In this document: in pieces, positions 40,303 through 49,148 of the stretch
Numbering within the stretch: position 1 is the first letter of the stretch
How the letters are laid out: the number at the start of each line of letters is the position of its first letter
Origin: Frondihabitans sp. 762G35
GTDB taxonomy: Bacteria; Actinomycetota; Actinomycetes; Actinomycetales; Microbacteriaceae
DNA length: 64,000 bases
NCBI RefSeq assembly: GCF_002074055.1
Contig: NZ_CP014619.1
Location: 372,001 to 436,000 of the forward strand
Direction: 5' to 3'
Translations under genes and position numbers: made by a program
The notes under the pieces: model-generated
Seen by the model: the letters and a program-made list of their open reading frames with translations, nothing else
Told to the model about the DNA's origin: nothing
The model's database searches: none

Positions 40303-40392
40303 TATGCTCGACGGGTCGCGACTGGCGTTCGGGTGGTCAACCACCGGGGAGCGACTTGCACGGTTGGTGGCCGTACGCCTGGGCCACCGCTG
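40303..40392 (+). ncRNA. ZTP (pfl) riboswitch ahead of glyA-folD
   Basis: The leader carries the ZTP/ZMP motif. GGGTCGCGACTGGCG at 40313-40327 is followed by the hairpin GGTGGTCAACCACC (40332-40345) and GGGGAGCGA closing the first domain. After a variable linker, CCGTACGCCTGGGCCACC (40371-40388) gives the conserved GCCTGGG pseudoknot element. A likely -10 (TATGCT) lies at 40303-40308. ZTP accumulates when 10-formyl-THF is short, and the RNA turns on one-carbon genes such as glyA and folD, which is exactly what follows (established for this class). Confidence 0.88.
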
Positions 40393-47168: not shown

Positions 47169-47177
47169 CCGACGGTG

Positions 47178-47250
47178 TGGGCCCCGTGGGGCTCGAACCC
47201 ACGACCCGCGGATTAAAAGTCCGATGCTCTACCGACTGAGCTAGAGGCCC
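47178..47250 (-). tRNA. tRNA-Lys (anticodon TTT)
   Basis: A 73-base tRNA on the minus strand. The acceptor stem GGGCCTC pairs with GGGGCCC, the D-arm is GCTCAGTCGGTAGAGC, the anticodon loop CTTTTAA carries TTT, and the T-arm is GTGGG TTCGAGC CCCAC. The discriminator is A, and CCA is not encoded. All stems close, so it should be functional. Confidence 0.97.
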
Positions 47251-47363: not shown

Positions 47364-47996
47364 ATGTCCCCACGCGACTTCCACCGTCCCGCCCAGTTCG
47401 CCGGCCACGAGTTCGAGGCGTTCCAGGGCGGCGCCGACCCGGCCGTGATGCACCGCGTCGCGCACGAGTCCGCGAGTGCCCTTCTGGCGCGCGTCCGGCA
47501 GGATCCCACACCCGAGATCCTCGACCGCCTCGTCGCGTTCACCGACTCCAACGGCATCGACGCCCTCGCCGAACTCTGGGCGAGCGCCACCCCGCACAGC
47601 CTGCCCGGCGCCCTCTGGCGGGTCTACCTCATGCGCGCCGTCATCCGGCAGAGCCCCGACGACATCGCCCTGCTCTTCGACCGGGGGACCCACGTCACCT
47701 CGACGATCGATCAGGTCGTGGCCGGAGCCCCGGCGCCCGCGAGCCCGGCGGAGATCCTCGATCTGGCCGACCGCATCCTGCGGGGCGTCTTCGACGGCGA
47801 CTTCGCGCTCGCGCTCGATCGCGGTGCGGCCTTCTGCCGTCTGGCGGCCGCCGGAGCCACGGACGTCGCCGACGACCTCGACCCGACGCGCCCCGACCGG
47901 GCGAGCGAGCTGACCCGGCGGGCCCTCCGCCTCTCCGAGCTCGCCGTCGACCTGAGCGCCTGCGCGGCACTCTGGCGCGACGGGAGTCTCGCCTAG
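47364..47996 (+). CDS. Conserved hypothetical actinobacterial protein
   Basis: A 210-residue soluble, mostly helical, alanine-rich protein that I do not recognise. It has no membrane segment, signal peptide or metal motif. LWASATPHSLPGALWRVYLMRAVIRQSPDDIALLFDRGT is its most distinctive tract (split here only by reading: LWASATPHSLPG, then LWRVYLMRAV). The ATG at 47364 is the first plausible start, and codon use is typical of the window. It stands alone between tRNA-Lys (divergent) and a long gene-free block. Confidence 0.65.
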   Translation: MSPRDFHRPAQFAGHEFEAFQGGADPAVMHRVAHESASALLARVRQDPTPEILDRLVAFTDSNGIDALAELWASATPHSLPGALWRVYLMRAVIRQSPDDIALLFDRGTHVTSTIDQVVAGAPAPASPAEILDLADRILRGVFDGDFALALDRGAAFCRLAAAGATDVADDLDPTRPDRASELTRRALRLSELAVDLSACAALWRDGSLA

Positions 47997-48096
47997 CCGG
48001 TTCGCCGTCCCGCGCCGACGCGCCCGGGCCCTCGCCGCGTTCGCTCTGTGCGGACTCGGTGCCGCGTTCCGGTTGCCGCGGCTAGAGTGGACGTCG

Positions 48097-48172
48097 CCGG
48101 GCCGCAGTAACCCCGGGCTCCAATATTCGCCGCTCCGAGCGGCCTCGCGCCGAGAGGCGTTCTGCGGCCCGG
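48097..48172. other. Branched palindrome 1 (possible structured RNA)
   Basis: An 11-bp perfect outer stem, CCGGGCCGCAG (48097-48107) with CTGCGGCCCGG (48162-48172), encloses two hairpins: GCCGCT-CCG-AGCGGC (48129-48143) and CTCG-CGC-CGAG (48144-48154). Together these give a three-way junction of 76 bases. No gene covers it, and the strand is undetermined. Confidence 0.4.
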
Positions 48173-48190
48173 TTCTTCTCTGCCTGGGTG

Positions 48191-48276
48191 CCCGCGCCTA
48201 GCCGGCGAGTGAACAGATACCGACGTATCTCGGCGTCGAGACGTCGACACCTGTCCACTCGCGGCGCCGGCGCGGG
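48191..48276. other. Branched palindrome 2 (possible structured RNA)
   Basis: A long outer stem pairs 48191-48198 with 48269-48276, 48201-48203 with 48263-48265, and 48205-48216 with 48251-48262 with one mismatch. Inside are ATAC-CGAC-GTAT (48217-48228) and GTCGA-GACG-TCGAC (48235-48248). The single A/C mismatch becomes a G-U pair if the minus strand is transcribed. It starts 19 bp after branched palindrome 1. Confidence 0.4.
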
Positions 48277-48548
48277 TGCGCGCGGCCGGCGCGGGGCACA
48301 CATCTGCGCGGACGCATTCTGCAGGATGCGCAGTCTCACCAAACCGATCCGGGACCCGCGCCGAATCCCTCTCTGAAACACCCCGCAACAGCTTCCCGAA
48401 AGCCGAACCGTGCCCCCAATGGCCGGTTCACAGCGGTGGTGCTCCCATGGGAGACGGGCTTGATTGCCATCCCAGACGTGTTCCATGGGAGTTCCACTGC
48501 TGTAACCGCCGCCCCCTTCGGACAGTGCGGATGGAGGTGCGACCTGAC
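48277..48548. promoter_or_regulatory. Gene-free leader of the sigma factor operon
   Basis: No credible gene is seen here. It holds a near-perfect 18-bp palindrome centred on CTGCAG (48313-48330), a perfect 12-bp palindrome CTCCCATGGGAG (48442-48453), and a partial second copy TTCCATGGGAG (48481-48491) 39 bp later. CCATCC at 48467 resembles the -35 reported for SigK promoters, but no matching -10 was found. Promoter identity remains open. Confidence 0.35.
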
Positions 48549-49148
48549 ATGCTGGAACTCGTGAGCCGAGATTCTGAACTCCCCGGGCGAGACATCGATC
48601 CCGCCCTGACCCCCGAGGAACTCCTCGAGAGGGTCGCGACGGGAGACCGCCAGGCCTTCGCCGCTCTCTACGATCTGACGGCCCCGAGGGTCCTCGGGCT
48701 CATCAAGCGTCTTCTGAAGGACCACTCGCAGTCGGAGGAGGTCACGCAGGAGGTCTTCCTCGAGATCTGGCAGACGGCCTCGCGGTTCGATCACGCCAAG
48801 GGCGGGGCCGCGAGCTGGATGCTGACCATGGCCCACCGTCGCGCCGTCGACCGGGTGCGTGCCAGCCAGTCGAGCCGCGACCGCGACACGAAGGTCGGCA
48901 TCCGCGACTTCGAGACCGACTACGACTCGGTCACCGAGCAGGTCGAGATCCGCATCGAACACGAGCGTGTCGAGCGGGCCCTGACCCGCCTCACCGAGCT
49001 CCAGCGCCAGGCCGTGACGCTCGCCTACTACGGCGGGTTCAGTCACAGCGAGGTATCCACCATGCTTCACGTCCCGATCGGGACGGTCAAGACCCGACTG
49101 CGCGACGGAATGATCCGCCTCCGCGACGAACTAGGAGTGGCATCATGA
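48549..49148 (+). CDS. sigK: ECF sigma factor, SigK-like
   Basis: A 199-residue extracytoplasmic-function sigma factor. Region 2 (DRQAFAALYDLTAPRVLGLIKRLL, seen as FAALYDLTAPRVLGLI, with EEVTQEVFLEIW) binds the -10, and region 4 (LTELQRQAVTLAYYGGFSHSE, here QRQAVTLAYYGGFSHSEV) binds the -35. The ATG at 48549 has GGAGGT 10 bp ahead; ATG 48531 is less well placed. The stop overlaps the next gene, a RskA-like anti-sigma factor, as in the mycobacterial sigK-rskA pair. It probably responds to an envelope or redox signal released through that membrane protein. Confidence 0.88.
   Translation: MLELVSRDSELPGRDIDPALTPEELLERVATGDRQAFAALYDLTAPRVLGLIKRLLKDHSQSEEVTQEVFLEIWQTASRFDHAKGGAASWMLTMAHRRAVDRVRASQSSRDRDTKVGIRDFETDYDSVTEQVEIRIEHERVERALTRLTELQRQAVTLAYYGGFSHSEVSTMLHVPIGTVKTRLRDGMIRLRDELGVAS

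Follow-up and report, generated by a model that had tools for sequence, protein, structure and literature searches.

The analyzed window is a stretch of actinobacterial chromosome of 64,000 nucleotides (Frondihabitans sp. 762G35, chromosome positions 372001-436000), and all window coordinates are counted from its first letter. Two adjacent branched palindromes had been predicted in a gene-free block in front of sigK. The block was confirmed: it is bounded by the gene for a 210-aa protein and by a downstream gene that NCBIfam NF007228 identifies as SigK and that is followed by a gene for an RskA-type anti-sigma factor (Table 1). The two palindromes, here called structure 1 and structure 2, are both real and adjacent, separated by 18 bp rather than the 19 bp originally given, and they are not one composite element, but two unrelated things side by side. 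Other features of the window include a minus-strand tRNA-Lys (TTT) gene at 47177-47250, adjacent to the gene for the 210-aa protein, and a ZMP/ZTP riboswitch (RF01750, 61.9 bits) at 40308-40391.

Table 1. Features of the sigK-proximal intergenic region and its neighbours (window coordinates).
Feature	Position	Strand	Evidence
Small RNA gene, predicted ~85-nt transcript, three-way-junction RNA	~48096..48180	+	Conserved 77-nt block, alignment, covariance-model match, covariation; ends deduced from -10 box and T-rich tail
Match to covariance model R1	48093-48184 (chromosome 420093-420184)	+	
RNA-gene -10 box, TAGAGT here and TACAGT in congeners	48083..48088	+	TANNNT at the same place in diverse homologues
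P1, 5' arm (including the G48096-U48173 wobble)	48096..48107	+	Inverted-repeat search, RNAalifold, covariation
P1, 3' arm	48162..48173	+	Inverted-repeat search, RNAalifold, covariation
Invariant unpaired motif CCCCGGGCTCCA; class consensus CCCCGGGYYCCA	48111..48122	+	1.78 bits per column, alignments
P2 hairpin, GCCGCT-CCG-AGCGGC	48129..48143	+	RNAalifold, covariation
P3 hairpin, CGCC-GAGA-GGCG, GNRA-type loop	48148..48159	+	RNAalifold, covariation, column conservation
T-rich stretch behind P1, likely the 3' end/terminator	48174..48180	+	T enrichment in homologues
Structure 2, long imperfect hairpin with species-specific palindromic repeat (core 48206-48261)	48191..48276		
210-aa all-helical protein, no known family, usually encoded upstream of the RNA gene	47364..47996	+	
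sigK, gene for an ECF sigma factor; follows the RNA in Frondihabitans but is not part of it	48549..49148	+	

Structure 1 spans 48096-48173 on the plus strand. As predicted, it consists of a perfect outer stem of 11 bp (48097-48107 with 48162-48172) that encloses two hairpins, and a G-U pair (48096/48173) lengthens this stem. We refer to the closing stem as P1 and to the hairpins as P2 and P3. The case for structure 1 is built on conservation and not on folding energy, which is modestly unusual in comparison with shuffled sequences (z -2.6 for the plus strand, z -3.2 for the minus strand).

Of 40 relatives, 36 gave matches to a 591-bp query from the region, at about 80-96% identity and in most cases over query positions 147-223 (window 48096-48172). 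The aligned block of 77 nt has a nearly invariant interior, and conservation stops sharply at both of its ends, leaving the flanks unconserved. Among 395 sampled genomes of the Actinomycetes, a covariance-model search detected the RNA in 215, mostly as one copy each. In a phylum-wide sample searched in the same way, 21 of 296 genomes carried it; all 21 belong to the Actinomycetes, and no sampled genome outside this class had a copy. Because the filters were strict, lineages missed by the model may hold diverged copies. A scan of named genomes with a degenerate pattern gives a lower bound for the genera involved, which are at least those among the matches listed: Cellulomonas, Brevibacterium, Streptomyces, Kitasatospora, Frigoribacterium, Curtobacterium, Rothia, Kocuria, Bifidobacterium, Arcanobacterium, Microbacterium, Nocardioides, Demequina, Brachybacterium and [Mycobacterium] manitobense.

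The structure is supported by compensatory changes. RNAalifold, applied to 20 sequences, returned P1, P2 and P3, and both partners had changed in 7 of the pairs. In a set of 66 homologues, 99.2% of the cells were paired and 13 of 22 pairs showed two-sided changes; these counts owe something to the alignment, which had been fitted to the model, as the 20-sequence alignment with its 7 pairs had not. None of 500 shuffles of the larger set reached any of five covariation measures, and pairing fell to 30-53% when the partner was slid by 1-3 columns. In P2, a two-sided change from C-G to U-A was found in distant lineages. A lack of conservation or compensatory changes in relatives, together with the lack of a transcript, had been set beforehand as the finding that would speak against a structured RNA; on the sequence side of this test, both conservation and compensatory changes are present. 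Column conservation was 1.3-1.4 bits in P1, 1.78 bits in CCCCGGGCTCCA, and 1.86-1.95 bits in the stems of P2 and P3. P1 is free to vary in sequence, and the CCCCGGGYYCCA strand and the two hairpins are almost letter-for-letter constant. Structure 1 belongs to an ancient, Actinomycetes-wide RNA family whose shape compensatory changes have preserved.

The RNA gene carries, as a sequence signature, its own promoter at a fixed distance. A TANNNT box was present just 5' of P1 in 90% of 134 diverse homologues versus 1.5-5% in control windows, and GGAAT or GGAAC-N17-19-GTT in 30% versus 0-0.7%, where the controls were windows further upstream, not shuffles, and the homologues, thinned at 75% identity, are still kin. 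The spacer was 18 nt long in 29 of the 40 matches to the latter pattern. The published sigmaR motif of S. coelicolor is GGAATN18GTT, and the SigH motif of M. tuberculosis is similar (PMC2375139). Some homologues (for example at loci L051 and L105) have the ECF-form promoter only, and many have the ECF form together with a -10 box. Members from Frondihabitans have the -10 box only (TACAGT or TAGAGT) without the GGAAT -35 element, so that stress control does not extend to the whole family. Control of the sigmaR/SigH type in a subset of the members appears quite probable from these motifs. In Frondihabitans, a conserved TTCGCTnnnTGCGGA lies at 48037-48055, 5' of the -10 box, and is possibly an activator site; the GGAAT -35 element of other genera is nearer to the -10 box. 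One locus (L062) has two tandem copies of the RNA gene (1501-1594 and 1683-1776), each with its own GGAAT/GGAAC-type promoter, and some other genomes, such as G116, have up to three copies.

At the other end of the gene, the T fraction in 123 homologues fell from 0.31 directly behind P1 to about 0.17 further downstream, which fits termination after P1. We infer a plus-strand transcript that would run from about 48095 to about 48180.

The wobble cells bear on whether structure 1 is an RNA or, as the original prediction also allowed, an element recognized as DNA cruciforms. Read on the plus strand, there were 58 G-U/U-G cells versus 2 C-A cells, which places the RNA on this strand, since an RNA on the other strand would reverse the ratio. 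Both structures are strong inverted repeats, and structure 2 is a dispersed DNA repeat (see below), so that both could be imagined as DNA elements, whether cruciforms or protein-binding palindromes. However, structure 1 has kept G-U but not C-A on the plus strand, its -10 box is strand-specific, and conservation is among the highest in its unpaired interior, so that we give this explanation hardly any credence. What survives of the cruciform proposal concerns structure 2, for which a DNA-level repeat is the best reading. A small ORF in structure 1 was also considered and rejected, because relatives differ by 1-base and 2-base length changes in the junctions and share no start codon, as judged by eye. 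The structured RNA that had been proposed for structure 1 is strongly supported by the class-wide conservation, the compensatory changes and the fixed -10 box, and structure 1 is almost certainly an RNA gene.

The proposal of a complex leader of sigK fared worse. In Frondihabitans and a few other genera, the RNA precedes sigK-rskA on the same strand, as a leader or attenuator would. Elsewhere, the downstream gene is a different one, such as an opposite-facing 259-aa ORF, and this variety of neighbours, some of them oppositely oriented, indicates that the RNA is not a sigK leader. Moreover, about 375 bp separate it from the sigK start, and the promoter and the T-rich tail fit a separate short transcript, making a role as sigK leader or attenuator very improbable. 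The RNA is not tied to one downstream gene, as expected for a free-standing small RNA. Between the RNA and sigK, at 48433-48500, we also noted an imperfect inverted repeat (24-nt arms, 79%) around CTCCCATGGGAG. Conservation of this stretch within the genus is partial, and it may serve as a regulator site or belong to the promoter region of sigK.

The usual neighbour of the RNA is, on the upstream side, the gene for the 210-aa protein. The 3' end of this gene faces the RNA in most loci of the Micrococcales, Propionibacteriales and Bifidobacteriales, and the gene was found in 117 of 190 RNA loci, mostly 40-330 bp away. The protein family, which many Micrococcales and Propionibacteriales share and whose genes are linked to that of the RNA, has no Pfam or NCBIfam assignment in the window, and none that is consistent across 40 homologues. 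The protein is predicted to be all-helical (mean pLDDT 90.5), and the predicted model had no fold match at E <= 0.001. It might be the partner of a ribonucleoprotein RNA, so that gene and RNA would form a linked RNA-protein unit. The adjacency, the sequence-level conservation of the RNA core, and the presence of the protein in 114 of 390 genomes of the class, largely in lineages with the best-scoring RNAs, are in favor of this idea, although these co-occurrence counts ignore phylogeny and shared ancestry could explain the pattern. Against it, the protein is missing from Streptomyces-like genomes (f34), f19 and most f33 genomes that carry the RNA, it is kilobases apart from the RNA in f35 genomes and unlinked in f44, and its predicted model offers no fold match. 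We consider the linked unit improbable, and the partnership of protein and RNA is a lead, not a result.

Structure 2 turned out to be different in kind. Instead of an outer stem of about 22 bp enclosing two hairpins, it is one long hairpin with 39-nt arms that are 74% complementary. It is beyond chance (none of 200 shuffles was as stable) and does pair better when the minus strand is read (z -7.5, versus -5.9 for the plus strand), as had been noted. The better minus-strand fold of this copy is due to four transitions that leave G-U there and is unremarkable alone. The core (48206-48261, about 56 bp) recurs in about a dozen full or partial copies in the genome, roughly of the form CGAGTGGACAGnTGnCGACG...CGTCGnCAACTGTCCACTCG. 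Four head-to-tail copies with related spacers lie at 2501237-2501667 (locus L194, 1038-1468), and two more at 1251391-1251542, in both cases between apparently convergent genes. The strict repeat pattern was absent from 39 relatives, including six congeners, and no hairpin like structure 2 follows the RNA in the aligned loci of the congeners. Structure 2 is a species-specific palindromic DNA repeat, unrelated to the RNA, which would have inserted or expanded in the species of Frondihabitans sp. 762G35. It resembles REP/palindromic unit repeats in being a dispersed intergenic palindrome with several copies in tandem or clusters, and dispersed intergenic palindromic copies are also what a REPIN/RAYT system has. 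It differs from them in that no Y1 (RAYT-type) transposase was detected in the genome and in being confined to 1 species among 40.

The position of structure 2, which starts 18 bp after P1, raised the question of whether it might be functional, either as the terminator that belongs to the RNA gene or as a bidirectional one, instead of a passive repeat. The copies between convergent genes would suit such a role, and a hairpin is often found 3' of the RNA in Streptomyces. However, structure 2 is missing at the same place in the congeners, the plus strand has no T-run after it, and the repeat is species-specific. A terminator function is rather unlikely, and we prefer to view structure 2 as a passive repeat.

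Altogether, structure 1 is best read as a free-standing, stress-linked small RNA of about 85 nt, or the core of a ribonucleoprotein, that would have its own plus-strand promoter and act in trans; we assign this reading, which was derived from sequence comparisons, a probability of about 0.88. Transcription would start at the RNA's own promoter and end just after P1. P1 and the junction would set the geometry of the C-rich strand and both loops, which would thereby form a recognition surface, and the RNA would then work either as a stress-linked regulator or within a ribonucleoprotein. As a regulator, it might pair its C-rich strand to G-rich (Shine-Dalgarno-like) sites in mRNAs. Such an antisense mode has a little less than an even chance; the ribonucleoprotein mode, which may overlap with it, is conceivable at somewhat lower odds. 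A target search with the complement TGGAGCCCGGGG found 3 exact sites in the genome, one of them the RNA gene itself, and none was convincing. A plain antisense small RNA would not usually keep both P2 and P3 so strictly, and since these hairpins are conserved as sequence, a protein or tertiary partner is likely, at least in addition. A more far-reaching version, which we regard as speculative and on the whole unlikely, is an uncatalogued, near-universal actinobacterial RNA under sigmaR/SigH-type (thiol/protein-damage stress) control in many lineages, with an invariant three-way-junction core that forms a ribonucleoprotein or dedicated machine, in contrast to a common antisense small RNA, and with the 210-aa protein possibly as partner in part of the class.

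Few structured RNAs are common to Bifidobacterium, Arcanobacterium, Streptomyces and mycobacteria. The near-invariant core, the gene's own promoter and its sigmaR/SigH-type form in many lineages suggest a likely role in basic physiology or stress, which can be tested in standard laboratory strains. The RNA would also add a family to Rfam and to annotation pipelines, in which such loci now stay blank.

Comparison with catalogued RNAs began with Rfam 15, which had no family match at the gathering score for the RNA in the window or for distant homologues. Matches at permissive thresholds were dismissed as chance only, mostly to eukaryotic miRNA models. Neither ARAGORN nor Rfam identified the RNA as tRNA or tmRNA, and the 20 kb around the homologue from Streptomyces contained no tmRNA gene. 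This Streptomyces-like homologue sits, by eye, between HelD-like and malic-enzyme genes, a position that we take to be that of SCO2952/SCO2951 in S. coelicolor. SCO2952 itself is presumably HelD (compare PMC10719064). The small RNA scr2952 of S. coelicolor is named after SCO2952, is reported to be conserved in more than half of the tested Streptomyces, and is stated to be in Rfam (PMC8388888), yet Rfam 15 gave no match over 16 kb of the Streptomyces-like locus. The literature searched described no class-wide family or structure. The Streptomyces homologue is possibly scr2952, by position and not by sequence. Entry 472 of a Streptomyces prediction table (PMC2422843), which may be near the expected region, was not equated with the homologue because the printed gene orientations do not fit. 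The text of two RNA screens, with 26 and with 50 bacterial genomes (PMC8632094, PMC11109978), offered no obvious match.

Among known actinobacterial RNAs, 6C RNA (RF01066) is similar in being a small RNA with conserved unpaired C-rich stretches. Structure 1 differs from it by one C-rich junction strand in place of two C-loop hairpins, by a GNRA-type hairpin, by different neighbours, and by the lack of an Rfam match. Ms1 and other 6S-like RNAs share with it the class-wide distribution of an actinobacterial non-coding RNA with a conserved fold; structure 1 is much shorter (about 85 nt), without a 6S-like bulged rod, and again without an Rfam match. Given the lack of an Rfam 15 match and the possible identity with scr2952, which is suggested by position, we call structure 1 a new family among the actinobacterial structured small RNAs, one member of which has possibly been seen before.
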